Assembly (NCBI RefSeq): GCF_002367995.1
Contig: NZ_AP018207.1
Coordinates: 7,736,199-7,800,198 of the forward strand
Reading direction: 5' to 3'
DNA: 64,000 nt
From: Calothrix brevissima NIES-22
Lineage (GTDB): Bacteria; Cyanobacteriota; Cyanobacteriia; Cyanobacteriales; Nostocaceae
Part shown: in pieces, positions 14,852-29,981 of the stretch
How positions within the stretch are numbered: position 1 is the stretch's first letter
Layout: each line of letters opens with the position of its first letter
Notes under the pieces: model-generated
The model's input: only the letters and a program-made list of their open reading frames with translations
Told to the model about the DNA's origin: nothing
Databases searched by the model: none
Translations under genes and position numbers: made by a program

Positions 14852-15028
14852 ATGTTAGATAAAGATATTTGGCAAAGCATCCGAGAAAAAGCAATTAACT
14901 ATGGCAGAGAAATATCCCGTAAACAAATTTCTATGTCCCTCTCTCCATTGAATACAACGGTTTCGAGAAAACGCAAACAGATAACTTTAAACTCTGTGTC
15001 AGATAACAATTCCCAGAAGTCAGCTTGA
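14852..15028 (+). CDS. Small ORF overlapping the recombinase 3' end
   Basis: 58 codons from ATG, beginning MLDKDIWQSIREKAINYGREIS. The first ~16 codons are outside the recombinase; the remainder overlaps its C-terminal coding region in the opposite strand. The N-terminal segment is helical and plausible as coding, the rest looks like antisense of the recombinase. Either a gene truncated when the recombinase end was joined to it, or chance. Confidence 0.2.
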   Translation: MLDKDIWQSIREKAINYGREISRKQISMSLSPLNTTVSRKRKQITLNSVSDNNSQKSA

Positions 15029-16215
15029 GCAAACGAGCGTAACATTAAATAATCGTCTTCCGTCTTGGATTCACGAGTATTATTTTGTTGCTCGTGATTT
15101 TTCATTTGTTGTTTTAAGTCAGTAATTGCCAAATCAATCGCGGGGTTGCTAGGAAGCGACTGGAGTGTTTGCAATTGATGTTGTAGCGTGATTAATCTTT
15201 GATCGATTGCCATATCCGGTTGTGTTCGGTGATTAACTTCCCGCACAACTTCCTTTGCATATTGCGTGAGAACTTTTGTCACTTCTTGTTTGACTATAGA
15301 TTTAGCGATCGCTTTCCCATTGCTACATCCAGCTTTTCCAAACTTCTTATACTGGGAACATTGGAACTGCTTTCCTGCCTTAGTTTTAGTCATGGCGTAT
15401 CCACAAACACCACATTTAAATATTCCTGCGAGAATATGGGGTTGGAATTTAGCGGGATCTTTCTTGTTGGTATGAGCGGTAGTTTTCGCTAAATCTTGGT
15501 ATTCACTTTCTGTTATCAGTGCTTCATGGGTTCCGTAATGCCGAGCAATTTCTCCCGACTTTAATTTATAAAATGTGTGCCCTCGTAAAGCGGGATTATG
15601 CAGCCAATTACGCAGACTAGACGGATACATCTTGATTTTAAAGCTTTCTGCTAGCCAGCGAGAAATGGAAGCAAAGGAGTTAGTGTAAAACCTGCCAATT
15701 ATTTCTTTGGCAATTAACCAATCTGTTGGGTGAGGGGTGCATTTAGCGTTTTCATCTTTTGCATAGCCAAATGGTGGGTTGCCAAAATATTTTAAATTGG
15801 AGCGGTAATAGTCGGTTCCGTGTGAGATTCGTTCAGACAATAATCGACTCTCAAATTCTGCCAACCCCGCAATATTATTAATAGTCAACCATCCGAAAGC
15901 GGAATTTGTATCGCCTAACGGTGAATCTAAAATGGTAAGCTTAACCCCAACTTTTTGGAGTGTTTCTATTGTTTTGTGGATAGAAATAACATTTCTTCCA
16001 AGTCTATCTAACCTCGTAACAACTATTTCTGTTGCTACTCCGTTTTTAGCAAGGTTAATAAGTTGGTTGAAATTTTTTCTGGTGTCTCTCCTGCCGGATT
16101 CGATGTCATATAAGATTTTTTCAGCCCCAGCTTTCTCTAGTCGGTTTATTTGTTGGTCAAGAGCTTCTGTATCTGCTTGTTGACGAGTTGACACGCGGGC
16201 ATAACCTACGCGCAT
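14899..16215 (-). CDS. Large serine recombinase of the hupS element (XisF-like)
   Basis: 438 residues. The resolvase catalytic domain starts at once, with YARVST placing the nucleophilic serine at residue 9 and an arginine at 7; further catalytic-domain motifs are VTRLDRLGRN and GLAEFESRLLSERI. A recombinase domain follows (~150-250) and a zinc ribbon FKCGVCGYAMTK (~265), then a coiled-coil tail, the usual plan of large serine integrases and of the fdxN-element recombinase XisF. It is clearly related to the nifE-element enzyme in this window. The start codon is ~54 bases from the hupS junction, with the gene reading away from hupS. It should cut and rejoin the element ends; a directionality factor was not identified. 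Confidence 0.9.
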   Translation of the reverse strand: MRVGYARVSTRQQADTEALDQQINRLEKAGAEKILYDIESGRRDTRKNFNQLINLAKNGVATEIVVTRLDRLGRNVISIHKTIETLQKVGVKLTILDSPLGDTNSAFGWLTINNIAGLAEFESRLLSERISHGTDYYRSNLKYFGNPPFGYAKDENAKCTPHPTDWLIAKEIIGRFYTNSFASISRWLAESFKIKMYPSSLRNWLHNPALRGHTFYKLKSGEIARHYGTHEALITESEYQDLAKTTAHTNKKDPAKFQPHILAGIFKCGVCGYAMTKTKAGKQFQCSQYKKFGKAGCSNGKAIAKSIVKQEVTKVLTQYAKEVVREVNHRTQPDMAIDQRLITLQHQLQTLQSLPSNPAIDLAITDLKQQMKNHEQQNNTRESKTEDDYLMLRSFAQADFWELLSDTEFKVICLRFLETVVFNGERDIEICLRDISLP

Positions 16216-16268
16216 AAGGGGTTTCAGGTGGTTTTTGTGGATAAAACAAATAGTACCACATCATTCAC

Positions 16269-16400
16269 AGAACTCAAACAATTATGGGGGTTCCCAAAGA
16301 ATTACCACCAGGAGTCAAACCCAAAGACTATGCCTTACTCACGATGGTAGCCAAAGACATCGCACCATCTTGGGCAGAAGAAGATATTTTCACGATTTAG
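16269..16400 (+). CDS. hupS: Uptake hydrogenase small subunit, 3' fragment
   Basis: The last 43 residues of HupS, read in a frame different from the longest one here: RTQTIMGVPKELPPGVKPKD... to AEEDIFTI and stop. This matches the conserved C-terminus of cyanobacterial HupS (RTQTVMGVPKELPPGV type). Upstream the frame soon meets TAG (~16248), so hupS is broken at about 16251-16272 by the insert carrying the neighbouring serine recombinase. hupL follows 103 bases downstream, the standard hupSL order. The full subunit carries the iron-sulfur relay of the uptake hydrogenase, which recycles H2 made by nitrogenase. The gene should work only after excision. Confidence 0.85.
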   Translation, partial: RTQTIMGVPKELPPGVKPKDYALLTMVAKDIAPSWAEEDIFTI

Positions 16401-16502: not shown

Positions 16503-17013
16503 ATGACAATTCAAACATTAGATATATCGCCTGTCGGTAGAGTCGAGGGCGATTTAGATGTCCGGGTGGATATAGAGGATGGGTATGTAGTCAATGCTTG
16601 GACTCATGCGGAACTCTTCCGGGGATTTGAAGTGATTCTACGCGGTAAAGATCCCCAAGCAGGATTAATTGTCACACCTCGGATCTGTGGTATCTGCGGT
16701 GGTTCTCACTTGACTTGTGCATCTTGGGCATTAGATACCGCATGGGGTACAGAAGTCCCGCGCAATGCGATTTTGGCAAGGAATTTAGGGCAAATTGTCG
16801 AAACAATTCAAAGTATCCCTCGCCATTTTTATGCACTATATGCCATTGACTTAACCCATAGAAAGTATCGCAGCAGTCGCTTCTACGAAGAAGCTACCAG
16901 ACGCTTTGGGGCGTTTACTGGCACATCTTACGAACTCGGCGTGACTATTGCCGCTAAACCTGTAGAAATTTATGCATTATTAGGCGGTCAATGGCCCCAC
17001 AGCAGTTATATGG
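16503..17013 (+). CDS. hupL: Uptake hydrogenase large subunit, 5' part
   Basis: The start is MTIQTLDISPVGRVEGDLDV. The first nickel-binding motif RICGICGGSH (~59-68) is the L1 signature of [NiFe] hydrogenases. True HupL sequence ends at WPHSSYM, inside the 17-bp repeat; the frame then continues into element DNA and stops at 17087, so before excision a 194-residue truncated protein would be made. Joining at the repeat to the 3' part (from 28884) is in frame and gives 531 residues, the normal size. The enzyme oxidises H2 in heterocysts. An AAAGGA ribosome site in the upstream tandem repeat supports this start. Confidence 0.95.
16997..17013. repeat. hupL element direct repeat, left copy
   Basis: CCACAGCAGTTATATGG, 17 bp, identical to the copy at 28880-28896. 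It lies inside hupL codons (HSSYM). To my memory this matches the ~16-bp repeat used by XisC in the Anabaena hupL element. Confidence 0.93.
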
Positions 17014-17673
17014 AAATAAATTGGAGAATTGCTTATATAGTCAGGATTTACCAAGATAGGTGTAATCATTCCCTGGCTTTTCCTTAAATTAGGCATATAA
17101 GTCCACAATCAGCTACGCTATCAGCAAATATCGCAAGCAGCAAATCAATTGATTTTTCTCTGCTAAAAGTTATTTAATTTTCTTCAGATATTACCTAATT
17201 TTTCCCTAACCCCAAATTAGCGATGTCTAGCGACAAGCCTTACTCTCCGAGAAGCCTCGCTCCGCTCGTCTACCGCGTCTACGCAGTTAAGGCAGTCCAG
17301 AACAAGTATTTACAGCAGATTACCGTTGATTGTAGGGGCACTGGCACTGCCATGCCCCGAAGCGCGTACCGCATTGACCTGAAATATGCTGTAAGTATAA
17401 TTATTTTCTTTACTTTGAAGTAAAAAGCCGGATTTTTCTCAATATAAATACGCAAATAGTACTATTCCAGTTTTATAATTTACATTAAGTTATAAGTATC
17501 CAGGTATTAATTACTTTGTTTGTCAATTAAGCGATCGCTTTTCTCCAATCCCAATATATCAAGCATCATAACCATTTCCTTTGAGAATTATACGCAAATC
17601 AGTTAGCCTTTCCTACCTCGCCCCAACCCGAAAATCGTCTAAACTCAAAGTGTCCGCCAACTGCCAAAATCCC
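17014..17673. other. Left flank of hupL element, no gene
   Basis: 660 bases without a credible gene. A 66-codon plus-strand frame at 17223 covers a dispersed repeat (17311-17369) and is rejected. A sequence from about 17608 (CCTACCTCGCCCCAACCCGA) to the first ATPase start recurs upstream of the other two ATPase copies, so the ATPase promoter or leader probably lies there. Confidence 0.55.
17311..17369 (+). repeat. Dispersed repeat, copy 1
   Basis: TACAGCAGATTACCGTTGAT followed by TGTAGGGGCACTGGCACTGC and CATGCCCCGAAGCGCGTAC. Similar copies lie at 62523-62603 (same strand) and 38128-38202 (opposite strand), and a shorter relative at 54180-54210. Confidence 0.7.
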
Positions 17674-19233
17674 ATGTCTCGCTGGTTCAACATTGCAGGC
17701 CCTTGTCAAGCTGATATCCACTACATGCTATCTGCAACAACACGATTACCAGATTTGGAAGAGCTAATCCAACAGCGTAGTTATTTTGTGGTTCATGCAC
17801 CGCGACAAACGGGGAAAACCACAGCAATGTTAGCTTTAGCGCAGCAACTTACCGCAACAGGACGTTATGCAGCAGTAATGGTATCGGTAGAGGTGGGAAG
17901 CGCATTTAATCATGATCCCAGTGCAGCAGAATTAGCGATTTTGGGAACTTGGTACGATACAATTGCGATTCGATTACCCAATGAATTGCAACCACCAGTT
18001 CTCACACAAGGGCAAAAAGAAGAACCAGGACGCAGAATTAGGGCTTTTTTCCAGGCTTGGGCACAGTCTTGCCCCCGACCTTTGGTAGTATTTATTGATG
18101 AAATTGACTCTTTACAAGACCAAACACTAATTTCAGTTTTACGGCAATTACGAGATGGTTTTCCCAATCGTCCAGAAAATTTCCCTTCATCTGTAGGATT
18201 AATTGGTTTGCGGGATGTGCGAGATTACAAAGTTGCATCCGGTGGTAGTGATAGATTAAATACATCCAGTCCTTTTAATATTAAAGTCAGTTCCATCACC
18301 CTGAGAAACTTTAACGCTACAGAGGTGCAAGAACTATATCAACAACATACAGAAAATACAGGACAAATTTTTACAACAGAAGCCACAGCAACAGCCTTTG
18401 ATTTAACTCAGGGACAACCTTGGTTAGTTAATGCCTTAGCCAAGGAAGTTGTGGAAAAAATGGTTAAGGATAGAAGTATTGCTATTACAAAAGAACATAT
18501 TTTACAAGCAAAAGAAATATTAATTGCTCGTCAAGATACTCATCTTGATTCTTTAGCTGAACGCTTACGGGAACCAAGAATAAAAGCGATTATCGAACCG
18601 ATATTAGCAGGTTTGGAATTGGGGGATATACCCAATGATGATATTCAATTTGTGATTGATTTGGGGTTGTGTAAAATGCATCCCCAGGGTGGATTAACCA
18701 TTGCTAATCCCATTTATCGGGAAGTTTTACCCAGAGTATTAACGGTGACACCAATGGCATCTCTACCAATGATTGCACCGACTTGGTTAACCCCAGAAGG
18801 GGAGTTAAATATAGATGCATTGCTAGCAGCATTTCTCAAGTTTTGGCGACAGCACGGGGAACCGTTATTAGGTAGTACTGGCTACCATGAAATCGCCCCC
18901 CACATCGTCTTAATGGCTTTCTTGCATCGTGTTGTTAACGGTGGTGGAACCCTGGAAAGGGAATATGCAATTGGTAGCGACAGAATGGATTTATGTCTGC
19001 GTTACAAAGATGTAACTTTAGGTATTGAGTTAAAGGTATGGCGGGAGAAAAAGCGCGATCCCCAAACTGAGGGAATTGAGCAATTAGAATCCTATTTAGG
19101 GCGTTTGGGGTTGGATTTTGGTTGGTTATTTGTGTTTGACAGGCGTAAAAATGCCCTACCAATGGAAGAACGTTTATCAACTGAGGTTGTGCTGACGGAA
19201 AATCAGCGTAGAATTACTGTGATTCGGGCGTGA
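17674..19233 (+). CDS. AAA-like ATPase with C-terminal PD-(D/E)XK nuclease, copy 1
   Basis: 519 residues from MSRWFNIAGPCQADIHYM, the conserved beginning of this cyanobacterial AAA-like family; an upstream in-frame start at 17581 lacks support. Walker A APRQTGKTT (~42-50), Walker B PLVVFIDEIDSL (~135-146), a sensor-like region around VGLIGLRDVRDYK, then a winged-helix-like part. The C-terminal ~90 residues look like a PD-(D/E)XK nuclease: D439 in RMDLCL, E452 and K454 in GIELKVW, and Q in GIEQLESYL. It probably couples ATP use to nucleic-acid cleavage; target unknown. From codon 275 (18496) onwards it is identical to copy 2; before that it is a distinct paralogue (MVSVEVGS versus VVSAEVGS). 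Confidence 0.85.
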   Translation: MSRWFNIAGPCQADIHYMLSATTRLPDLEELIQQRSYFVVHAPRQTGKTTAMLALAQQLTATGRYAAVMVSVEVGSAFNHDPSAAELAILGTWYDTIAIRLPNELQPPVLTQGQKEEPGRRIRAFFQAWAQSCPRPLVVFIDEIDSLQDQTLISVLRQLRDGFPNRPENFPSSVGLIGLRDVRDYKVASGGSDRLNTSSPFNIKVSSITLRNFNATEVQELYQQHTENTGQIFTTEATATAFDLTQGQPWLVNALAKEVVEKMVKDRSIAITKEHILQAKEILIARQDTHLDSLAERLREPRIKAIIEPILAGLELGDIPNDDIQFVIDLGLCKMHPQGGLTIANPIYREVLPRVLTVTPMASLPMIAPTWLTPEGELNIDALLAAFLKFWRQHGEPLLGSTGYHEIAPHIVLMAFLHRVVNGGGTLEREYAIGSDRMDLCLRYKDVTLGIELKVWREKKRDPQTEGIEQLESYLGRLGLDFGWLFVFDRRKNALPMEERLSTEVVLTENQRRITVIRA

Positions 19234-19249
19234 GTATTTTGAATGAATG

Positions 19250-19406
19250 ATTGATTTCTTTGTTTGGATATTGAGCGATCACATTTCTCAAAAATGTTTA
19301 ACGGCAAATCTAACTCCTCTAGACTGCGATCGCACTTGCTTAAAGTCCACAATCTTGGTACGTTAAGAGGAATTTATCAGCAGATTCATCAGGAGTATTA
19401 TGGGGA
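19250..19406. repeat. ATPase tail repeat, copy 1
   Basis: A ~155-base noncoding segment following the ATPase stop: TTGAGCGATCACATTTCTCA, then CTCCTCTAGACTGCGATCGC, then TTAAGAGGAATTTATCAG. Related tails follow ATPase 2 (22197-22353, identical) and ATPase 3 (25138-25262), and a fourth lies at 26246-26400 with no ATPase before it. Confidence 0.8.
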
Positions 19407-19431
19407 ACTAACTTGAAAAAATAAAATAAAT

Positions 19432-20208
19432 TCATCTTGAAAGAATCTTATTGATTTCATTCACAACATCTTCAAAATTTGAGTTCTCGTGTATATCAAT
19501 TGGCGGAATTAGAAAATCTCTCAGATGACCAATAAATTCACTTATCGTTCGTGTTATTTTTGAGTATAAGTCGATATCTTCTCTTATATTTGGCGCTAAA
19601 TTGGCAAGTTTAACAGACTTCATTGCTTTGTCCGCAGCCTCAAGTTGCTCTTCCCAAAATTTAATATACTTAACAATATCAACTACATCATAAATCTCCG
19701 CATCCTCTAAAACAAGGGGGACAATTCTTTCTTGAAAATTTCCATTTTCAATAAACTCAGTTAGCTCAAACATACAGTATTTAGATTTGAGATATTTATC
19801 ACTTATGACTGTAACAACACATTTACCTTTCCCCAATCTTTGCATAAAGTTTTTTAATGAGTCTTTATACTCCAATTCTTCCGAATCACGAACAATATCA
19901 ATATTTTTGTCCTTAAGAATTTTACATGTATCATATATTAATCTCTTATATTTTGACGGCAAATTTCCTGATTTTTTATTTTCTTCAGAAGGAACTTCAC
20001 CAATTTCAGAAGCTACATCAAAAGCACATCTAAAAAAAATCATAAACTTCTGACGGCAATTACTAAAGAATGGATCTTTTGACTTAAAAACTTGGAATGG
20101 ATCTATACATAAATGGGTATCTCTATCAAGACGAGGATTAAACCAGTCATCTTGTTCTGATGCCTCAATATTGTAAACTTCAGAGAAAAGAACGCTTTCT
20201 TGTTTCAT
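19432..20208 (-). CDS. TIR-domain protein with unusual N-terminus, copy 1
   Basis: 258 residues. Residues ~85-235 match a bacterial TIR domain from helix A onward: IYDTCKILKDKNIDIVRDSEEL (BB-loop region), KGKCVVTVISDKYL, then SKYCMFEL with the candidate catalytic Glu148, RIVPLVLEDA and FWEEQLEAADKAMKSV. The usual opening strand (VFISYAWG type) is absent. In its place residues 1-70 carry a different motif, FNPRLDRDTHLCIDPF ... DPFFSNCRQKF, seen in another family of hypothetical proteins as I recall. TIR domains often cleave NAD+ in antiphage defence; activity here is uncertain given the missing strand. It sits 5 bases after the small helical gene in the same operon, convergent with the ATPase. 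Confidence 0.8.
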   Translation of the reverse strand: MKQESVLFSEVYNIEASEQDDWFNPRLDRDTHLCIDPFQVFKSKDPFFSNCRQKFMIFFRCAFDVASEIGEVPSEENKKSGNLPSKYKRLIYDTCKILKDKNIDIVRDSEELEYKDSLKNFMQRLGKGKCVVTVISDKYLKSKYCMFELTEFIENGNFQERIVPLVLEDAEIYDVVDIVKYIKFWEEQLEAADKAMKSVKLANLAPNIREDIDLYSKITRTISEFIGHLRDFLIPPIDIHENSNFEDVVNEINKILSR

Positions 20209-20213
20209 AAAAG

Positions 20214-20480
20214 TTACTCAGGTAGTTCTAAAATTTCTTCTAGGTACTTTCTCGCTTTTGCAGCTTCAGGTAAAGCTTCTTTATAAGCTGAAAGTGCTAC
20301 AGCATAATCTCTAATAAGCTTCAGGCTTTTTTTAATCTCATTAAAATCACTTTCAGCCAACAATCTCTCATCAAACAATAAGTCCATATTTTTGCGTACT
20401 TCCAAAGATTGCTTATACAGATTTTGAGCTTTTTGCTTACTTAAATAGTGGTAGATAGCAAGAACTTTTCTGGCTATCAT
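20214..20480 (-). CDS. Small helical partner of the TIR gene, copy 1
   Basis: 88 residues, almost entirely helical and charged (YHYLSKQKAQNLYKQSLEV ... AAKARKYLEEILELPE), with no membrane segment or known motif. It is the first gene of a two-gene operon; its stop is 5 bases before the TIR start. An identical copy lies at 23161-23427. The constant pairing suggests an inhibitor, adaptor or sensor for the TIR protein, but this is inference from position only. Confidence 0.65.
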   Translation of the reverse strand: MIARKVLAIYHYLSKQKAQNLYKQSLEVRKNMDLLFDERLLAESDFNEIKKSLKLIRDYAVALSAYKEALPEAAKARKYLEEILELPE

Positions 20481-20620
20481 CTTTTTCCGAGTAATAGACG
20501 GAATGATTCGGTATATCTACCCGATGTTTAAACAAACAAAAATCCCCAATTAGCCCTTCCTACCTCGCCCCAACCCGAAAATCGTCTAAACTCAAAGTGT
20601 TCGCCAACTGCCAAAATCCC

Positions 20621-22180
20621 ATGTCTCGCTGGTTCAACATTGCAGGCCCTTGTCAAGCTGACAAAAACTATATGCTATCCCCTACCAGTCGTCTCCCTGA
20701 CTGGGAAATTCTGATTCAACAAGAAAGTTATTTTGTTGTTCATGCACCGCGACAAACGGGGAAAACCACAGCAATGTTAGCTCTAGCGCAGCAACTTACC
20801 GCAACTGGACGTTATGCAGCAGTAGTAGTATCTGCGGAGGTGGGAAGCGCATTTAATCATGACCCCAGTGCGGCAGAATTGGCGATTTTGGGAACTTGGT
20901 ACGATACAATTGCGATTCGATTACCGAATGAATTGCAACCACCTGTTCTCACACAAGGGCAAAAAGAAGAACCAGGACGCAGAATCAGGTCTTTTTTTCA
21001 AGCTTGGGCACAGTCTTGCCCCCGACCTTTGGTAGTATTTATTGATGAAATTGACTCTTTACAAGACCAAACACTAATTTCAGTTTTACGACAATTACGA
21101 GATGGTTTTCCCAATCGTCCAGAAAATTTCCCTTCATCCGTGGGATTAATTGGTTTGCGGGATGTGCGAGATTACAAAGTTGCATCTGGTGGTAGTGATA
21201 GATTAAATACATCCAGTCCTTTTAATATTAAAGTCAGTTCAATTACCCTGAGAAACTTTAACGCTACAGAGGTACAAGAACTATATCAACAACATACAGA
21301 AGATACAGGACAAATTTTTAGTTTAGAAGCCGCAGCAACAGCCTTTGATTTGACTCAGGGACAACCTTGGTTAGTTAATGCGCTGGCTAAAGAAGTTGTA
21401 GAAAAAATGGTTAAAGATAGAAGTATTGCTATTACAAAAGAGCATATTTTACAAGCAAAAGAAATATTAATTGCTCGTCAAGATACTCATCTTGATTCTT
21501 TAGCTGAACGCTTACGGGAACCAAGAATAAAAGCGATTATCGAACCGATATTAGCAGGTTTGGAATTGGGGGATATACCCAATGATGATATTCAATTTGT
21601 GATTGATTTGGGGTTGTGTAAAATGCATCCCCAGGGTGGATTAACCATTGCTAATCCCATTTATCGGGAAGTTTTACCCAGAGTATTAACGGTGACACCA
21701 ATGGCATCTCTACCAATGATTGCACCGACTTGGTTAACCCCAGAAGGGGAGTTAAATATAGATGCATTGCTAGCAGCATTTCTCAAGTTTTGGCGACAGC
21801 ACGGGGAACCGTTATTAGGTAGTACTGGCTACCATGAAATCGCCCCCCACATCGTCTTAATGGCTTTCTTGCATCGTGTTGTTAACGGTGGTGGAACCCT
21901 GGAAAGGGAATATGCAATTGGTAGCGACAGAATGGATTTATGTCTGCGTTACAAAGATGTAACTTTAGGTATTGAGTTAAAGGTATGGCGGGAGAAAAAG
22001 CGCGATCCCCAAACTGAGGGAATTGAGCAATTAGAATCCTATTTAGGGCGTTTGGGGTTGGATTTTGGTTGGTTATTTGTGTTTGACAGGCGTAAAAATG
22101 CCCTACCAATGGAAGAACGTTTATCAACTGAGGTTGTGCTGACGGAAAATCAGCGTAGAATTACTGTGATTCGGGCGTGA
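20621..22180 (+). CDS. AAA-like ATPase/PD-(D/E)XK nuclease, copy 2 (chimera)
   Basis: 519 residues from MSRWFNIAGPCQADKNYM, with the same Walker A/B and nuclease residues as copy 1. Up to base 21442 it is identical to copy 3 (GAG codon, ADKNYMLSPTSRLPDWEIL, VVSAEVGS); from 21457 it is identical to copy 1 (GCA codon, AERLREPRIKAIIEPI). The switch is within the 14 bases 21443-21456. It is therefore the recombinant expected from unequal crossover between copies 1 and 3. It faces a divergent TIR operon (19432-20480) across a ~140-base gap, so the two may share a promoter region. Confidence 0.88.
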   Translation: MSRWFNIAGPCQADKNYMLSPTSRLPDWEILIQQESYFVVHAPRQTGKTTAMLALAQQLTATGRYAAVVVSAEVGSAFNHDPSAAELAILGTWYDTIAIRLPNELQPPVLTQGQKEEPGRRIRSFFQAWAQSCPRPLVVFIDEIDSLQDQTLISVLRQLRDGFPNRPENFPSSVGLIGLRDVRDYKVASGGSDRLNTSSPFNIKVSSITLRNFNATEVQELYQQHTEDTGQIFSLEAAATAFDLTQGQPWLVNALAKEVVEKMVKDRSIAITKEHILQAKEILIARQDTHLDSLAERLREPRIKAIIEPILAGLELGDIPNDDIQFVIDLGLCKMHPQGGLTIANPIYREVLPRVLTVTPMASLPMIAPTWLTPEGELNIDALLAAFLKFWRQHGEPLLGSTGYHEIAPHIVLMAFLHRVVNGGGTLEREYAIGSDRMDLCLRYKDVTLGIELKVWREKKRDPQTEGIEQLESYLGRLGLDFGWLFVFDRRKNALPMEERLSTEVVLTENQRRITVIRA

Positions 22181-22378
22181 GTATTTTGAATGAATGATTG
22201 ATTTCTTTGTTTGGATATTGAGCGATCACATTTCTCAAAAATGTTTAACGGCAAATCTAACTCCTCTAGACTGCGATCGCACTTGCTTAAAGTCCACAAT
22301 CTTGGTACGTTAAGAGGAATTTATCAGCAGATTCATCAGGAGTATTATGGGGAACTAACTTGAAAAAATAAAATAAAT

Positions 22379-23155
22379 TCATCTTGAAAGAATCTTATTG
22401 ATTTCATTCACAACATCTTCAAAATTTGAGTTCTCGTGTATATCAATTGGCGGAATTAGAAAATCTCTCAGATGACCAATAAATTCACTTATCGTTCGTG
22501 TTATTTTTGAGTATAAGTCGATATCTTCTCTTATATTTGGCGCTAAATTGGCAAGTTTAACAGACTTCATTGCTTTGTCCGCAGCCTCAAGTTGCTCTTC
22601 CCAAAATTTAATATACTTAACAATATCAACTACATCATAAATCTCCGCATCCTCTAAAACAAGGGGGACAATTCTTTCTTGAAAATTTCCATTTTCAATA
22701 AACTCAGTTAGCTCAAACATACAGTATTTAGATTTGAGATATTTATCACTTATGACTGTAACAACACATTTACCTTTCCCCAATCTTTGCATAAAGTTTT
22801 TTAATGAGTCTTTATACTCCAATTCTTCCGAATCACGAACAATATCAATATTTTTGTCCTTAAGAATTTTACATGTATCATATATTAATCTCTTATATTT
22901 TGACGGCAAATTTCCTGATTTTTTATTTTCTTCAGAAGGAACTTCACCAATTTCAGAAGCTACATCAAAAGCACATCTAAAAAAAATCATAAACTTCTGA
23001 CGGCAATTACTAAAGAATGGATCTTTTGACTTAAAAACTTGGAATGGATCTATACATAAATGGGTATCTCTATCAAGACGAGGATTAAACCAGTCATCTT
23101 GTTCTGATGCCTCAATATTGTAAACTTCAGAGAAAAGAACGCTTTCTTGTTTCAT
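22379..23155 (-). CDS. TIR-domain protein, copy 2
   Basis: Identical in all 258 residues to the protein at 19432-20208, with the same missing first TIR strand and the IDPF-type N-terminus. It is part of the duplicated 2,947-bp unit, lies 5 bases downstream of the second small helical gene and is convergent with ATPase copy 2. Confidence 0.8.
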   Translation of the reverse strand: MKQESVLFSEVYNIEASEQDDWFNPRLDRDTHLCIDPFQVFKSKDPFFSNCRQKFMIFFRCAFDVASEIGEVPSEENKKSGNLPSKYKRLIYDTCKILKDKNIDIVRDSEELEYKDSLKNFMQRLGKGKCVVTVISDKYLKSKYCMFELTEFIENGNFQERIVPLVLEDAEIYDVVDIVKYIKFWEEQLEAADKAMKSVKLANLAPNIREDIDLYSKITRTISEFIGHLRDFLIPPIDIHENSNFEDVVNEINKILSR

Positions 23156-23160
23156 AAAAG

Positions 23161-23427
23161 TTACTCAGGTAGTTCTAAAATTTCTTCTAGGTACTTTCTC
23201 GCTTTTGCAGCTTCAGGTAAAGCTTCTTTATAAGCTGAAAGTGCTACAGCATAATCTCTAATAAGCTTCAGGCTTTTTTTAATCTCATTAAAATCACTTT
23301 CAGCCAACAATCTCTCATCAAACAATAAGTCCATATTTTTGCGTACTTCCAAAGATTGCTTATACAGATTTTGAGCTTTTTGCTTACTTAAATAGTGGTA
23401 GATAGCAAGAACTTTTCTGGCTATCAT
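23161..23427 (-). CDS. Small helical partner of the TIR gene, copy 2
   Basis: Identical to the 88-residue protein at 20214-20480. First gene of the second TIR operon, divergent from ATPase copy 3. Confidence 0.65.
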   Translation of the reverse strand: MIARKVLAIYHYLSKQKAQNLYKQSLEVRKNMDLLFDERLLAESDFNEIKKSLKLIRDYAVALSAYKEALPEAAKARKYLEEILELPE

Positions 23428-23567
23428 CTTTTTCCGAGTAATAGACGGAATGATTCGGTATATCTACCCGATGTTTAAACAAACAAAAATCCCCAATTAG
23501 CCCTTCCTACCTCGCCCCAACCCGAAAATCGTCTAAACTCAAAGTGTTCGCCAACTGCCAAAATCCC

Positions 23568-25127
23568 ATGTCTCGCTGGTTCAACATTGCAGGCCCTTGT
23601 CAAGCTGACAAAAACTATATGCTATCCCCTACCAGTCGTCTCCCTGACTGGGAAATTCTGATTCAACAAGAAAGTTATTTTGTTGTTCATGCACCGCGAC
23701 AAACGGGGAAAACCACAGCAATGTTAGCTCTAGCGCAGCAACTTACCGCAACTGGACGTTATGCAGCAGTAGTAGTATCTGCGGAGGTGGGAAGCGCATT
23801 TAATCATGACCCCAGTGCGGCAGAATTGGCGATTTTGGGAACTTGGTACGATACAATTGCGATTCGATTACCGAATGAATTGCAACCACCTGTTCTCACA
23901 CAAGGGCAAAAAGAAGAACCAGGACGCAGAATCAGGTCTTTTTTTCAAGCTTGGGCACAGTCTTGCCCCCGACCTTTGGTAGTATTTATTGATGAAATTG
24001 ACTCTTTACAAGACCAAACACTAATTTCAGTTTTACGACAATTACGAGATGGTTTTCCCAATCGTCCAGAAAATTTCCCTTCATCCGTGGGATTAATTGG
24101 TTTGCGGGATGTGCGAGATTACAAAGTTGCATCTGGTGGTAGTGATAGATTAAATACATCCAGTCCTTTTAATATTAAAGTCAGTTCAATTACCCTGAGA
24201 AACTTTAACGCTACAGAGGTACAAGAACTATATCAACAACATACAGAAGATACAGGACAAATTTTTAGTTTAGAAGCCGCAGCAACAGCCTTTGATTTGA
24301 CTCAGGGACAACCTTGGTTAGTTAATGCGCTGGCTAAAGAAGTTGTAGAAAAAATGGTTAAAGATAGAAGTATTGCTATTACAAAAGAGCATATTTTACA
24401 AGCCAAGGAAATATTAATTGCCCGTCAAGATACTCATCTTGATTCTTTAGCTGAAAAACTCAGGGAGAAACGAGTTAAAGATATTATTGAACCCATTTTA
24501 TCAGGACAAGCATTACCCGATACTCCAGCCGACGATCGCCAATATTTAATCGATTTAGGGTTATTGCGACGCGATCCTGCGGGGGGACTAGTTATTGCTA
24601 ACCCGATTTATCGCGAAGTTATTCCCCGCGTTTTAGTGCAAGGAACCCAGGATAGTTTACCCCATATTAGTCCCAGTTGGTTAACCCCAAAAGGAGAGTT
24701 AAATATAGATGCATTGCTAGAAGCATTTCTCAAGTTTTGGCGACAGCACGGGGAACCATTACTTGGTAGCGCTGTTTACCATGAAATCGCCCCCCACATC
24801 GTCTTAATGGCTTTCTTACATCGTGTTGTGAATGGTGGTGGAACCCTGGAGAGGGAATATGCAATTGGTAGTGACAGAATGGATTTATGTCTGCGTTACA
24901 AGGATGTAACTTTAGGTATCGAGTTAAAGGTATGGCGGGAGAAAAAGCGCGATCCCCAAACTGAGGGAATTGAGCAATTGGAATCCTATTTAGGGCGTTT
25001 AGGGTTGGATTTTGGTTGGTTATTTGTGTTTGACAGGCGGAAAAATGCCCTACCAATGGAAGAACGTTTATCGACTCAGGTTGTGCTGACGGAAAATCAG
25101 CGTCGGATTACTGTGATTCGGGCGTGA
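23568..25127 (+). CDS. AAA-like ATPase/PD-(D/E)XK nuclease, copy 3
   Basis: 519 residues. The N-terminal half is identical to copy 2 (Walker A APRQTGKTT, Walker B VVFIDEIDSL). From codon ~278 it diverges from the other two (EKLREKRVKDIIEPILSGQALPD, LLRRDPAGGLVIANP), then becomes nearly the same again in the nuclease part (RMDLCL, GIELKVWREKK). The variable middle segment, ~100 residues of winged-helix-like sequence, may set partner or target specificity; that is inference. Together with copy 1 it is the likely parent of the chimeric copy 2. Confidence 0.85.
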   Translation: MSRWFNIAGPCQADKNYMLSPTSRLPDWEILIQQESYFVVHAPRQTGKTTAMLALAQQLTATGRYAAVVVSAEVGSAFNHDPSAAELAILGTWYDTIAIRLPNELQPPVLTQGQKEEPGRRIRSFFQAWAQSCPRPLVVFIDEIDSLQDQTLISVLRQLRDGFPNRPENFPSSVGLIGLRDVRDYKVASGGSDRLNTSSPFNIKVSSITLRNFNATEVQELYQQHTEDTGQIFSLEAAATAFDLTQGQPWLVNALAKEVVEKMVKDRSIAITKEHILQAKEILIARQDTHLDSLAEKLREKRVKDIIEPILSGQALPDTPADDRQYLIDLGLLRRDPAGGLVIANPIYREVIPRVLVQGTQDSLPHISPSWLTPKGELNIDALLEAFLKFWRQHGEPLLGSAVYHEIAPHIVLMAFLHRVVNGGGTLEREYAIGSDRMDLCLRYKDVTLGIELKVWREKKRDPQTEGIEQLESYLGRLGLDFGWLFVFDRRKNALPMEERLSTQVVLTENQRRITVIRA

Positions 25128-25137
25128 GTATTTTGAA

Positions 25138-25473
25138 TGATTGATTTGTTTGTTTGGAAATTGAGCGATCGCATTTCTCAAAGATGTTTAATAGCAAATC
25201 TAACTCCTCTAGACTGCGATCGCTTGCTTAAAGTCCACAATCTTGGTGCGTTCCCAAGAATTTATCGGCTGAGTAATTATGAGTTTTCATCGGGAACGCA
25301 CCCTACACGATCGGCGATCCACTCCCTTCCTTCACCGATGCTTATTATTATATAAATCTAATTATAGATATACAAGAATTACGCAAAAATGACGTAAAAG
25401 CCTTGATTTACCCTATGGGCAATTCATGAATTGCCCCTACATTCCGTACTTGCTGCGTAAGTCCTAATATATC
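25138..25473. repeat. ATPase tail repeat copy 3, then palindromic spacer
   Basis: Bases 25138-25262 are a diverged copy of the ATPase tail. The rest contains an inverted pair (GGTGCGTTCCC near 25246 and GGGAACGCACC near 25292) and the palindrome GGGCAATTCATGAATTGCCC near 25418. No gene is evident; a 72-codon plus-strand frame here lies in repeat sequence. Confidence 0.6.
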
Positions 25474-26160
25474 TTATTTGAGTTTTTCACATATTAGTTC
25501 TACAAAATTTCTGACTATGCATTGCTCACCTACATTATAGCTAAATGAAGAGGGAGATGAACTTGATGAACTCCACCATGAACCACCAGAAAAGATATTT
25601 ATGCCTATGCCCAAGGAATACTGAGCAACCTCGTAAGGGATCTCGATTTCAAACTCTTCTTCTAATACCATCAAAATTTGCTGTAAATCACATTCGTCTG
25701 CACCCAGATGGTTCGATAGATGGCTGTCTAAACTTACTTTTTTCTCTTCTACATCTAACTGTTCACTAATTAGTTCCCTAACTCTAACAAAAACTTTTGC
25801 TTTGCGCTCATCACCTCCGAACTTGCCTAGTGCATCAGTCACATTGGAAAGAAATTGTTGAGCTTTTTCGGCATCAGCAATACGATGGGCTTCTTCGGCA
25901 TCAGCAATACAACGGGCTTCTTCGGCAAGTTGATTCTTTATAGACCTAATTCGAGAATCAACTATATCTCGTACTAAACTAAGTTCAACTTTATGTCCGC
26001 TTTGTTGATAAATTCTTGTTGCTGTATCCCACACAAATTGGTCACGATTAATCTCAGATTTATGAATATTTTCTTTCTTAAATAATGTGCTTTCGTCTAA
26101 GTGCTTGTTAACTATCATCTTCAGTATTTGTAGTTCGTAGCTCTTATCAGCTTCACTCAT
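25474..26160 (-). CDS. Acyl-carrier-like protein lacking the carrier serine
   Basis: 228 residues. The N-terminal ~75 residues are helical and unassigned, followed by an Ala/Glu-rich coiled coil with a short repeat (CIADAEEAHRIADAEKAQQ). Residues ~120-180 look like an acyl carrier domain: KVFVRVRELISEQLDVEEKK, LSNHLGADECDLQQILMVLE, EFEIEIP. The expected GADSLD reads GADECD, so the serine that holds phosphopantetheine is missing. A Ser/Trp-rich insertion (SGGSWWSSSSSSPSS) interrupts the end of the domain. It probably acts as a protein-interaction module rather than a carrier. It occupies the same position relative to ATPase 3 as the TIR genes do to ATPases 1 and 2. Confidence 0.7.
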   Translation of the reverse strand: MSEADKSYELQILKMIVNKHLDESTLFKKENIHKSEINRDQFVWDTATRIYQQSGHKVELSLVRDIVDSRIRSIKNQLAEEARCIADAEEAHRIADAEKAQQFLSNVTDALGKFGGDERKAKVFVRVRELISEQLDVEEKKVSLDSHLSNHLGADECDLQQILMVLEEEFEIEIPYEVAQYSLGIGINIFSGGSWWSSSSSSPSSFSYNVGEQCIVRNFVELICEKLK

Positions 26161-26245
26161 CAGCTAATTTCCTATAGGTTTATCCATAACCATAATATCA
26201 AGAACAAGTTTAAATAATTTCAAATTATCCTGAATTATAGAAGTA

Positions 26246-26400
26246 TTGATTTCTGGGTTTGGAAATTGAGCGATCACATTTCTCAAACATCCTCTAACAA
26301 CAAATCTAACTCCTCTAGACTGCGATCGCTTGCTTAAAGTCCATAATCAGGGTGCGTTAAGAGGAATTTATCAGTAAATTCGTCAGGAGTATTGTGGGGA
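26246..26400. repeat. ATPase tail repeat copy 4, orphan
   Basis: Matches the ATPase tails (GAAATTGAGCGATCACATTT, CTCCTCTAGACTGCGATCGC, TTAAGAGGAATTTATCAG) but has the ACP-like gene before it instead of an ATPase. A short further piece (GCGATCGCATTTTTCAAAGA TGTTTAACG) follows at about 26442-26470. It suggests an ATPase gene was lost here. Confidence 0.7.
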
Positions 26401-26576
26401 AAGCATCCTACAAGATTGGCGATCGCACTAACTCGATATTAGCGATCGCATTTTTCAAAGATGTTTAACGTTCCTGTTGAGCGGTTGTCAGAACTTTTGC
26501 AATCTTACAAGCGACTCTCGACAATCCGCTACACCGGGTTTGTTAGACCGCGCAATACCATCTCAAGCTTATAGGG

Positions 26577-27161
26577 TTAATTTGCAAAGCTCCATCTTTG
26601 ATCTGTATTTGAGCCGTTATCGCGGTTACGTCCAGACAGTTCGCAATCCCAAAGTTGCAATGCTGCACCATTTGTCTGACCTGGAGCACCAGCTACATCA
26701 ATACATTTACCAGACAAAGTATTTCTGATGAATCCATTAGCTGTAATTGTCCATTTTTGATCTGTATTTGAGCCGTTATCACGATTACGTCCAGACAGTT
26801 CGCAATCCCAAAGTTGCAATTTTGCAGCGTTAGTTCGCCCTGGAGCACCAGCTACGTCAATGCACTTCCCAGACAACGTATTCCTGATGAATCCACCACT
26901 TGTTAATATCCATTTTTGATCTGTAGTTGAATTGTTATCAGGGTTGATTCCACTTAATTCACAATCCCAAAGCTGTAATGCTGCACCGTTACTTCGCCCT
27001 GGAGCGCCAGCTACGTCAATGCACTTACCAGAGAATAAGTTGTTAATAAATCTTCCGTTAGTTCCTTGTGCTTCACCTGGTTGTTTGATGAGAAAAAGTG
27101 AAGTTGTAAGGCTAGAGAGTACGACGAGTAAACTAGGCAAAAACTTAGCAGAGAATCTCAT
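26577..27161 (-). CDS. Secreted ricin-type beta-trefoil lectin
   Basis: About 194 residues from MRFSAKFLPSLL; six codons further upstream also give a start (27179). The signal peptide ends near GEAQG. Three consecutive ~46-residue repeats follow, each with GKCIDVAGAPG, LQLWDCELSG and a Q-x-W motif (DQKW, DQKW, DQRW), which is a complete beta-trefoil (ricin B / CBM13). It likely binds carbohydrate outside the cytoplasmic membrane. It lies between the orphan tail repeat and xisC. There is no enzymatic partner, so it may be an adhesin-like or toxin-binding module; that is a guess. Confidence 0.88.
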   Translation of the reverse strand: MRFSAKFLPSLLVVLSSLTTSLFLIKQPGEAQGTNGRFINNLFSGKCIDVAGAPGRSNGAALQLWDCELSGINPDNNSTTDQKWILTSGGFIRNTLSGKCIDVAGAPGRTNAAKLQLWDCELSGRNRDNGSNTDQKWTITANGFIRNTLSGKCIDVAGAPGQTNGAALQLWDCELSGRNRDNGSNTDQRWSFAN

Positions 27162-27279: not shown

Positions 27280-28764
27280 TTAGACATTCTCTGAAAATCT
27301 CAACTTTTCAACTTCCAACCTTAACCTTTCATTCTCCATCTTGAGCGCTAAGATTTCATTCTTCTGCAACTCAATTAATGCTTTCTGACTAATGACCTCA
27401 CCAAAGGCTTTTTTCCGATTTTCAATCCCAAACCATCTTTGATAAGTTTTTGTATGTTCATCAACAGTATGACCTAAATTGTCTGCTGCGGCTTTGATGG
27501 GGATTCCCTGAAGATGCGCTCGAATCGCGCAAGCATGACGCAAATCGTAGGGTTGAAACTCAATTCCCACTTTTCTAAACCATCTGGATATATCTCTCCG
27601 CATCCAATTAATATTTTGCACAGAGGCAATTTTTGTCACCTTTTTTTCTAAAATATTTAATGGCTTGGGATTTTGTAAATCAAATAATTCTATCCATTCT
27701 GGTACAAAAGGTATAACTTCTCGATATCCAGTTTTTGTATTTTTATTGACTTTCCAAGTATGGTCTATATTTTGGGGAGATATCCACCAATTAATATCAG
27801 GTTCTACAAATAATTCCCTTGGTCTTAACCCAAAGGTTGCTAACATCCCATACACCCAACGCCACATTTCCCAAGTGTCGATTTCATCGCTGATGTTTGT
27901 ATTTTTGCGGTTGAGGGCGAATTTTTCAAATAGGTGAAAAGCAGAGATTATTTTATCATCTTCGGGGATTTCTCGATGGGCAGGAGTGACATTATCCCGT
28001 GTGACATCGAGTGTAAATCCTAACTGAAAAGTTTTAATAAAAACAGAAGTTACGGCTATCAGTTCATTTTTTTTATTTCCCTGAAATGAATTAATAATTT
28101 CCTCAAAGTTATTTTTTGTGGCTAAAGTCGTTAAAGGAAAGTTTCTTTTAATTACAGATATATAGTTAGCAAAAGTATTTTGACTGGTGATAGTCTGCTG
28201 ACGGTTTTGATAATATTTTTCGGCAAATTTATCTAATAATTCCCCAATAGTTTTTATCTCTTGCTTCTCTCTTGACTTAATTCCTAAATACTTCTCATTC
28301 CACTGGAAAGTATGACGGGCGATTAATTTACCCAACTCGTAACTTTCTTCAATTGCAGTTTTTAATCCCTCTAAATTTGCTGGTATCCCTAAAGACAAGT
28401 CATACTGCTTTTTTTCTTTACCTAAACTGCGATCGCCTGGTTTTAACGGTAGGGTAGCTCGTAACTGAAGAGAATTGCCAGTTTGTTTAATGCTAACTCT
28501 AATTCTATCCCTTTTTAAATTACTATTAGCTTCGACTAACTTCTGCTCAAAAACTGCTTGATACTGTAGTTCTGTTGCTTTAATTTTCGCCATTATTCCC
28601 CTGTAGCTACCGTCTGTGGTGCTGTGCGGCTCAAAATCTGCAAACATATCGGCGAACAAATCCCTTGAGTCTGCATTTGCAGATTCATCTGTAGATAGGG
28701 GATATGTCTTTGATATTAAATTTTGGCGATAGCAATTACCCTGATTTTGATTTTGCTCGCTCAT
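27280..28764 (-). CDS. xisC: XisC-like tyrosine recombinase of the hupL element
   Basis: 494 residues, typical of the XisA/XisC group. The C-terminal catalytic domain has box I ATFGLRPREL (R314), a lysine-bearing hairpin (KVNKNTKTGYREV), box II YDLRHACAIRA (R409), LGHTVDEH (H432) and the nucleophile in TKTYQRWF (Y441). The usual first histidine of box II (HxxR) is tyrosine (Y406), which I recall as a peculiarity of this group. A C-terminal coiled coil follows. Its start lies ~116 bases from the right 17-bp repeat. Expected role: excision of the hupL element in differentiating heterocysts. Confidence 0.92.
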   Translation of the reverse strand: MSEQNQNQGNCYRQNLISKTYPLSTDESANADSRDLFADMFADFEPHSTTDGSYRGIMAKIKATELQYQAVFEQKLVEANSNLKRDRIRVSIKQTGNSLQLRATLPLKPGDRSLGKEKKQYDLSLGIPANLEGLKTAIEESYELGKLIARHTFQWNEKYLGIKSREKQEIKTIGELLDKFAEKYYQNRQQTITSQNTFANYISVIKRNFPLTTLATKNNFEEIINSFQGNKKNELIAVTSVFIKTFQLGFTLDVTRDNVTPAHREIPEDDKIISAFHLFEKFALNRKNTNISDEIDTWEMWRWVYGMLATFGLRPRELFVEPDINWWISPQNIDHTWKVNKNTKTGYREVIPFVPEWIELFDLQNPKPLNILEKKVTKIASVQNINWMRRDISRWFRKVGIEFQPYDLRHACAIRAHLQGIPIKAAADNLGHTVDEHTKTYQRWFGIENRKKAFGEVISQKALIELQKNEILALKMENERLRLEVEKLRFSENV

Positions 28765-28879: not shown

Positions 28880-28896
28880 CCACAGCAGTTATATGG
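28880..28896. repeat. hupL element direct repeat, right copy
   Basis: CCACAGCAGTTATATGG, identical to 16997-17013. The crossover in this repeat keeps the hupL frame: AGC AGT TAT ATG is read in phase on both sides. Confidence 0.93.
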
Positions 28897-29981
28897 TGCC
28901 TGGTGGTGTGATGTGCGCCCCCACCCTGACTGATATTACTCGCGCTTGGTCGTTGTTAGAATATTTCCGCACCAACTGGTTAGAACCTGTATGGTTAGGT
29001 TGTTCTCTAGAACGTTATGAGGAAATTCAGACTTATGACGACTTTATGAACTGGCTAGACGAAGACCGGAAGCATCGGGATTCGGACTTGGGTTTATATT
29101 GGCGCATGGGTTTGGATATCGGTTTGGATCGATATGGTGCAGGTGTGGGTAAATATGTCACATGGGGATATTTACCTCACGAGGACAAATACCAAAACCC
29201 CACAATTGAAGGGCGCAACGCCGCCATGATTATGAAAAGTGGAGTGTATGACAGTTTTACTAATACTCATACCTTGATGGATCATACCTTTACCCGTGAG
29301 AATACTACTCACTCTTGGTATGATGAAGGCACAGCAGATATTCACCCCTTCGATCGCACTACTAATCCGATCCAAAAGAATACTAAAGACTTTGATAATG
29401 CTTATTCTTGGTCTACTTCTGTGCGTCACCAAGACTTTGGACGTTTAGAAGTTGGTGCTTTATCACGCCAATTAGTTGCAGGTGGTAAGCATGGAGAACC
29501 TTGGCAACATCAAGATGGGTTTATCCTCGATGTATTCAAACAAATGGGTGGTGCTAGTATCCATGTGCGTCAATTAGCCAGAGTTCACGAACTGGTGAAG
29601 CTATATCGTCAAGCTGAACATTGCTTAAGGGAATTCAAATTAAACGATCCCTGGTATATTAGACCGAAAGAGAAAGATGGTAGAGGTTGGGGTGCAACTG
29701 AAGCTGCCAGAGGTTGTTTAAGCCACTGGGTAGAAGTAGAGGGTGGTAAGATTAAGAACTACCAAGTGATTGCACCAACTACTTGGAACGTCGGCCCCCG
29801 TGATGGTGAAGGTGCAAGAGGCCCAATTGAGGAAGCTTTAGTTGGTACGCCAATTTACGATCCGAGAGATCCAGTAGAAGTAGGTCACGTAGCGCGATCG
29901 TTTGACTCTTGTTTGGTGTGTACAGTTCACGCCCACGATGCGAAAACTGGTGAAGAACTGGCACGTTTTCGGACTGCTTAG
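28884..29981 (+). CDS. hupL: Uptake hydrogenase large subunit, 3' part
   Basis: 365 codons continuing HupL from inside the right repeat (SSYM then VPGGVMCAPTLTDITRAW). The second nickel-ligand motif is near the end: FDSCLVCTVHAHD, with DxCxxC preceding the His typical of the C-terminal cleavage site; HupW should remove the residues after VHAH. No start codon of its own is expected, and the ATG at 28893 is internal. After excision it joins the 5' part to give 531 residues. A hairpin follows the stop. Confidence 0.95.
   Translation, partial: SSYMVPGGVMCAPTLTDITRAWSLLEYFRTNWLEPVWLGCSLERYEEIQTYDDFMNWLDEDRKHRDSDLGLYWRMGLDIGLDRYGAGVGKYVTWGYLPHEDKYQNPTIEGRNAAMIMKSGVYDSFTNTHTLMDHTFTRENTTHSWYDEGTADIHPFDRTTNPIQKNTKDFDNAYSWSTSVRHQDFGRLEVGALSRQLVAGGKHGEPWQHQDGFILDVFKQMGGASIHVRQLARVHELVKLYRQAEHCLREFKLNDPWYIRPKEKDGRGWGATEAARGCLSHWVEVEGGKIKNYQVIAPTTWNVGPRDGEGARGPIEEALVGTPIYDPRDPVEVGHVARSFDSCLVCTVHAHDAKTGEELARFRTA

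Follow-up and report, generated by a model that had tools for sequence, protein, structure and literature searches.

Heterocyst-gene excision elements have been known for decades, and relatives of the cyanobacterium considered here excise such elements from hupL in specialised cells, the heterocysts; for Anabaena PCC 7120, programmed excision of the hupL element by XisC is said to have been described by Carrasco in 1995 and 2005. The accessible parts of a survey of such elements (Hilton 2016, PMC4874684) record a hypothetical protein conserved in five hupL elements and remark that changes within the elements make tracing them to their origin difficult, and cyanobacterial integrons as such are already known from the accessible parts of two further papers (PMC2426708, PMC8352920). 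Here we analyse a window of 64,000 nucleotides from Calothrix brevissima NIES-22 (contig NZ_AP018207.1, positions 7,736,199 to 7,800,198 of the forward strand; coordinates below are those of the window), in which ATPase genes, a repeated noncoding tail and opposite-strand gene modules form an array. All of the array is carried as cargo by a hupL excision element about 11.9 kb long, and this cargo probably descends from an integron and is now changed by homologous recombination. The structure is real and well bounded, and is best read as a decayed integron within a programmed excision element, amplified by homologous recombination.

In the window, hupL is split into two parts that keep the same orientation and order: a 5′ half running to the XisC repeat (16503–17013, plus strand; Pfam NiFeSe_Hases, 1.3e-19), whose frame continues to 17087 inside the element, and a 3′ half (28893–29981, plus; NiFeSe_Hases, 9.1e-51). 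The 16-bp direct repeat CACAGCAGTTATATGG stands on the plus strand at both ends, at 16998–17013 and 28881–28896, and an identical repeat is reported for Anabaena PCC 7120 in the part of the Nodularia genome paper available to us (PMC3610870). A xisC-type tyrosine recombinase gene lies within (27280–28764, minus; Pfam Phage_integrase, 7.4e-7). The initial annotation, made from the letters alone, had placed the array inside an excisable element, and the hupL halves, the repeats and the XisC-type integrase bear this out.

Its description of the array's layout also holds at the level of coordinates. Three plus-strand ATPase genes, A1 (17674–19233), A2 (20621–22180) and A3 (23568–25127), each encode 519 amino acids from an ATG at the first position, and each is followed by a homologous tail and then by a minus-strand module. 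Tail 1, the long form (19245–19405, plus; nhmmer 7.8e-43), precedes a TIR-domain gene (19432–20208, minus; Pfam TIR_2, 2.4e-10) and a small helical gene (20214–20480, minus; Pfam matches below cut-offs only, best DUF7118). Tail 2 (22192–22352, plus; 7.8e-43) precedes identical copies of both genes (22379–23155 and 23161–23427, minus), and tail 3 (25134–25295, plus; 9.9e-46) an ACP-like gene (25474–26160, minus; Pfam PP-binding, 1e-5; NCBIfam ACP models below cut-offs). A fourth tail (26236–26400, plus; 1.4e-39) has no ATPase gene and stands before a ricin-B-type lectin gene with a hydrophobic N-terminus (26577–27161, minus; Pfam Ricin_B_lectin, 2.7e-22). Partial tails flank these, one forming a leader at the left end (17496–17548, plus; 8.8e-10) and a fifth (26436–26504, plus; 1.5e-8) running into the attC core GTTTAAC.

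For comparison we assembled related elements. Relatives of xisC at 80% identity or more occur in 65 of 217 genomes of the family (counted by hand, fragments included); stretches of at most 20 kb were fetched for 51 of these, and the comparison set comprises 38 complete hupL elements of 3.7–17.9 kb, longer, split, inverted or contig-broken elements having been left out before counting. Genes were called with a simple purpose-made caller, and eight of the 38 elements entered the set via an ATPase search, so the share of ATPase-bearing elements given below may be high. Two further arrangements of hupL were seen: in genome G289 the element is apparently split by an inversion (L221 and L222), with the hupL 5′ half and an ATPase gene on one strand, the hupL 3′ half on the other, with xisC, about 62 kb away, and another genome carries a second, uninterrupted hupL frame (L053:16562–18157) about 5 kb from its interrupted hupL.

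Plain stem-energy detection of integron attC sites was dropped as non-discriminating, and a position weight matrix (PWM), then a covariance model, were used instead. The covariance model, CM R1, rests on 15 attC sites that neighbour intact integron integrases, IntI, in other genomes of the family (L209–L212), and on none in hupL elements, because circularity was to be avoided; its training alignment has two-sided compensatory change in 11 of 18 pairs. Over 40 sources totalling 804,473 bp, about 0.31 Mb of it elements, the model gave 22 matches at E ≤ 1 and 17 at E < 0.01, and all 17 of the latter lie inside hupL elements and on the minus, or cassette, strand. Ten of the 17 adjoin a tail, and twelve lie at most 120 bp 3′ of a minus-strand gene, which in four of the twelve is xisC. 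In L166, L171, L175 and L176 an attC site (element coordinates 5077, 6833, 3104 and 8206) lies 64–118 bp behind the xisC stop codon. The PWM was trained on seven IntI-side sites, with first-order Markov resamplings as controls. At scores of 22 or more the 38 elements (314 kb) hold 23 sites on the minus strand and none on the plus, against 1.5 per strand in resampled copies, and 406 kb of flanks hold 5 plus and 12 minus; at 28 or more the elements hold 15 minus and none plus, resampled copies 0.05, and flanks one on each strand.

One of these sites is in the window, 29 bp 3′ of the lectin stop codon (26463–26548, minus; CM R1 56 bits, E 2.8e-9 over 804 kb; PWM 39.9), and the lectin gene together with its attC site has the form of an integron cassette. 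The window site is one of two CM R1 matches (E ≤ 1) in the 9.26-Mb genome; the other, a very strong one on a 190-kb contig (G000:C5:62372–62458, or L226:4373–4459; 85.4 bits), sits 12 bp behind a minus-strand gene whose product is pentapeptide-repeat-like by eye. Two or more attC sites close together without an integrase make a CALIN. At least two sites at E < 0.01 occur in L039, L166, L169, L171 and L176, and the window has one clear site.

Remnants of the integrase itself are found in relatives. IntI fragments lie on the plus strand, at most 60 bp from the xisC stop codon, in 10 of the 38 elements, are 45–93% identical to intact cyanobacterial IntI (best E 2e-39), and were not found in the flanks of the same hupL loci; the family search showed integrase fragments beside xisC in G409, G411 and G415 as well. 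The DUF433 module protein has a 62% homologue immediately next to intI in L213. An integrase convergent with xisC, with attC sites and most cargo on the other strand and running away from it, is the geometry of an integron.

A tail profile that began with three copies in the window was refined in rounds on the elements themselves (57 matches in the first round, 86 in the last; nhmmer, E ≤ 1e-4) and finds 86 tails in the 38 elements, at least one in each, and all 86 lie on the plus strand, as hupL does. Many terminate at GTTTAAC, after which sequences differ among elements, an attC site following in some. That the tail is a genome-wide repeat, a possibility that the initial annotation had raised, was rejected: in this genome all five matches obtained by scoring 40 of 185 candidates lie inside the hupL element, and of 68 matches listed from the 217 family genomes 63 lie in or near hupL elements, 59 of them no more than about 20 kb from a true xisC and another 4 on contigs with the hupL 5′ half (sorted by hand, leaving out one match each in G347 and G529). 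Matches at E ≤ 1e-4 were found in 43 of the 217 genomes, with at most four candidates scored per genome; for two in G514 and one in G532, the stretch fetched contains neither xisC nor the hupL 5′ half. The annotation had further tied the tail to the ATPase gene, and this part does not stand, the called gene upstream of a tail being an ATPase in 18 of 86 cases, while no called gene precedes the tail within the element in another 18, and 16 of the 38 elements having tails with no ATPase. That the tail is the ATPase's own 3′ untranslated region was likewise rejected, most tails having no adjoining ATPase.

We propose that the ancestral element carried xisC and a convergent integron integrase gene, intI, beside which cassettes ending in attC, many of them toxin–antitoxin-like pairs, would have been captured, piling up mainly on the minus strand towards the hupL 5′ half. 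The integrase gene would then have decayed, and in some relatives remnants of it persist beside the xisC stop. The tail, a direction-locked constant of hupL elements often abutting an attC core, probably marked the array's distal boundary at first, beside the resident AAA/PD-(D/E)XK ATPase gene. Without intI, the array would change by homologous recombination between direct repeats, namely ATPase genes and tails, and the tail copies now found between modules were plausibly made in this way. The second half of tail 1 may itself be a decayed attC site, judging by its likeness by eye to the attC site of L188. Beyond this origin, we can only infer a function for the tail or any mobility at present.

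The alternative that survives best, though we consider it unlikely, is an ordinary excision element into which genes came at random, with attC sites and integrase fragments as incidental debris of separate integron insertions. Hilton 2016 (PMC4874684), in the parts available, calls element content highly variable and dynamic, and transposase-type genes occur among the cargo, both in favour of this reading. It fits poorly with integrase fragments held at one position and orientation against xisC, with mapped attC sites that all share a strand and mostly adjoin a tail, and with a direction-locked tail in all 38 elements.

Several results nevertheless weigh against descent from an integron. No intI gene or IntI fragment was detected in the window's own element; fragments near xisC are confined to the ten elements above, three of them being weak (E 3e-5 to 2e-4), and most elements show neither attC nor fragment clearly. 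The integrase model TIGR02249 is by itself unspecific, matching, at E ≤ 0.001, 198 of the 217 genomes as well as all 14 controls and exceeding its cut-off in 10 of the 217. At PWM scores of 22 or more, attC sites occur in only 14 of the 38 elements; a single site passes in the window's element, where the TIR and ACP modules show no more than degenerate versions, and this site folds only modestly better than shuffled sequences (z −1.38), stem-energy searches having failed to separate elements from flanks. Of the cargo genes, 84 of 276 lie on the plus strand, opposite to the canonical cassette direction. The tail profile was iterated on the very elements in which its copies are counted, weak dispersed tails elsewhere could be missed because so few candidates were scored per genome, and ordinary integron insertion does not explain tails between modules.

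The window offers a clean natural example of module duplication through unequal crossover. The first two units recur at an interval of 2,947 bp and are identical over an unbroken 2,961 bp. Between A1 and A3, 184 of 1,560 positions differ, and at these informative sites A2 agrees with A3 at the first 65 and with A1 at the other 119, with one switch, at 21442–21457. A2 is therefore a chimera that matches A3 in its 5′ part and A1 in its 3′ part, and the three copies go back to just two distinct ATPases; the annotation's three ATPase modules count as two plus one. Compared site by site, the A2 unit is what a single unequal crossover of A1 with A3 should yield, and no later change is visible in it; such an event would have doubled the TIR/helical module and left the chimeric ATPase in the middle. 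The suggestion that homologous ATPase segments allow amplification is thus upheld: the middle unit looks like the outcome of such an event. The tandem unit may be an assembly error, which would bear on the duplication step only.

Among 388 genomes sampled across the order, 88 contain members of the family to which the ATPase belongs (E ≤ 1e-10), and AAA_35-type matches were obtained for all 41 members scanned. In these 41 sequences D439 and E452 are invariant and K454 is present in at least 90%, so a D...ExK motif is there; Pfam matches to the nuclease domain are weak (PDDEXK_9 in 2 of 41, NucS_C in 1 of 41, E 0.002–0.004). On the motif and these matches the C-terminal domain appears PD-(D/E)XK-like, as named in the initial annotation. 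No NCBIfam name could be given at E ≤ 0.001, and no relative of solved structure was found by sequence at E ≤ 0.01. Residues 296–372, a middle segment of about 75 residues, fall into two classes among 124 sequences (51 in class I, 58 in class II, 15 in neither). The class label changes once on the segment's own tree, partly by construction as the classes were defined from the segment itself, and 25 times on the tree of the rest of the protein (FastTree, with no shuffled control); the segment thus appears to have been swapped often across the family. In the window A1 and A2 carry class I and A3 class II, so the crossover moved this segment too. Outside hupL elements, attC sites near other ATPase genes looked no denser than in flanks (judged by eye), and a link between ATPase and integron there was rejected.

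Within hupL elements the ATPase is found in 22 of 38, as 28 copies, and is the first gene in 15. It could be argued that the ATPase together with its tail is a small mobile unit in its own right, entering the array time after time, with tails staying behind when it is lost: all 28 copies lie on the plus strand, the 5′ and 3′ flanks of the gene are conserved, and a tandem exists outside hupL. That tandem (L046:6811–14906) has five ATPase genes in direct succession, about 85 bp apart and free of intervening modules, and neither hupL nor xisC was seen beside it in the L046 stretch. We hold this explanation to be improbable, a little more so than random collection. Most orphan tails begin like the leader tail GTATAGAAG and not like an ATPase 3′ end, the first ATPase is fixed at 236–238 bp from the left end in 10 of the 22 ATPase-bearing elements, and no ATPase copy was found elsewhere in this genome.

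Of the cargo genes in the 38 elements, 192 of 276 lie on the minus strand. Modules recur in changing order and are interchangeable between tails. Clusters were named from one annotated representative each and comprise DUF433/DUF5615 in 17 elements (both genes in 12), DUF2281/PIN in 13 (both in 8), an unnamed gene with DUF5674 in 10 (both in 8), an unnamed gene with a DUF6036 nucleotidyltransferase in 10 (both in 7), a pair with an aspartyl protease in 8 (both in 4), papain-fold toxin 2 with a partner in 5 (both in 4) and UPF0175/DUF3368 in 2 (both in 2). The DUF433, DUF5615, DUF2281, DUF6036, DUF5674, UPF0175 and DUF3368 proteins we take to form toxin–antitoxin pairs, and on this basis at least one toxin–antitoxin-like cluster occurs in 30 of the 38 elements (29 by a stricter list). 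Among single cargo proteins of at least 60 amino acids, 64 of 87 were scanned (best 25 of 84 families seen for Pfam and best 25 of 194 for PADLOC), and the matches listed include methylases, HNH, ThsB-type TIR, NADAR, Ntox16, XisI and others. Those listed from PADLOC include restriction-modification components and a SEFIR/GUN4-type protein. The expectation of recurrent toxin- or effector-type modules among relatives is thus borne out for hupL elements, as counts that stand without a matched background for effector enrichment; as for the neighbours of homologous ATPases more widely, the family has matches in 15 plasmid records, and at the three loci opened the neighbours are unrelated (parA/dnaB, transporters, transposases).

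In the window itself, the ACP-like gene has a 78% homologue inside another hupL element (L194). Its domain carries GADE at the GADS position, and active ACPs carry GADS, so the domain may not bear a prosthetic group. PADLOC returned no match at E ≤ 0.01 for the TIR, helical, ACP or lectin proteins and a weak mad8 match for the ATPase (1.3e-5), and against the TIR-based anti-phage model of NCBIfam, retron-TIR, the TIR protein scores 21 bits with a cut-off of 600. That the array works as modular defence, AAA/PD-(D/E)XK ATPases being partnered in alternation by TIR, ACP or lectin effectors, as first suggested, is very improbable: TIR domains here, restriction-modification components, a SEFIR/GUN4-type protein and ThsB-type TIR among the matches listed for other hupL elements, and an ATPase in over half of the elements speak for it, but modules vary independently of the ATPase and do without it in 16 of 38 elements, the recurrent cargo is toxin–antitoxin-like, the window modules lack PADLOC matches, and at the three plasmid loci opened the ATPase's neighbours are unrelated. 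Defence is a possible use of part of the cargo and not its organising principle; the cargo would serve in retention by addiction and in some defence.

XisC should remove the array whole in heterocysts, so that the cargo would be kept only in vegetative, dividing cells. We would go further only tentatively, and think it rather less than an even chance, that hupL elements are a distinct class of integron-derived island tied to programmed excision: a germ-line-only store of toxin–antitoxin and defence cassettes, removed as a block by XisC in terminally differentiated cells. Cassette traffic in such islands, once the integrase was lost, would have come to depend on homologous recombination, acting at a direction-locked repeat and at ATPase genes whose ancient two-class specificity segment is itself exchanged.

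A second element lies partly in the window. hupS is also interrupted, residues 1–265 and 260–304 lying about 54.6 kb apart (G000:C1:7697033–7752595; window 14899–16397), a large serine recombinase gene (14899–16215, minus) stands at the right end of the hupS element, and the window from 1 to about 16262 lies inside it.

Where heterocyst-gene excision elements come from, and why their cargo differs from strain to strain, are questions to which an integron origin offers a testable answer for hupL. If true, it would connect integrons with programmed DNA excision in the somatic cells of a multicellular bacterium and account for a cargo rich in toxin–antitoxin-like pairs. In the open-access literature, which leaves most subscription papers outside, we found no link of hupL or xisC to integrons; in the parts available, co-mentions of xisC and integrons were confined to work on a Plasmodium recombinase, and those of heterocysts and integron integrases to work on integrase evolution. 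The main text of Hilton 2016 (PMC4874684) contains no word starting with "toxin".

Compared with described systems, the locus shares with the hupL/XisC element of Anabaena PCC 7120 an interrupted hupL, a 16-bp direct repeat, xisC at the hupL 3′ side and variable cargo. It departs from the surveys of such elements (PMC4874684, PMC3610870), which in their accessible parts describe the content as variable, with integrons, tails and toxin–antitoxin arrays going unmentioned. With chromosomal integrons and CALINs it has in common attC sites of the cyanobacterial intI-side type on the cassette strand, small toxin–antitoxin-like cassettes and, in relatives, an integrase remnant in canonical geometry. 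Unlike them, it sits inside a developmentally excised element with a decayed integrase, its modules are punctuated by a constant tail and a resident ATPase, and many of its modules lack a recognisable attC site or lie on the opposite strand. The ATPases, finally, resemble other AAA_35 or ATPase_2-type ATPases with a C-terminal PD-(D/E)XK domain in their P-loop core, D...ExK motif and patchy, multi-copy distribution, and differ from them in having a fixed place in many hupL elements and a middle segment of about 75 residues in two exchangeable classes.

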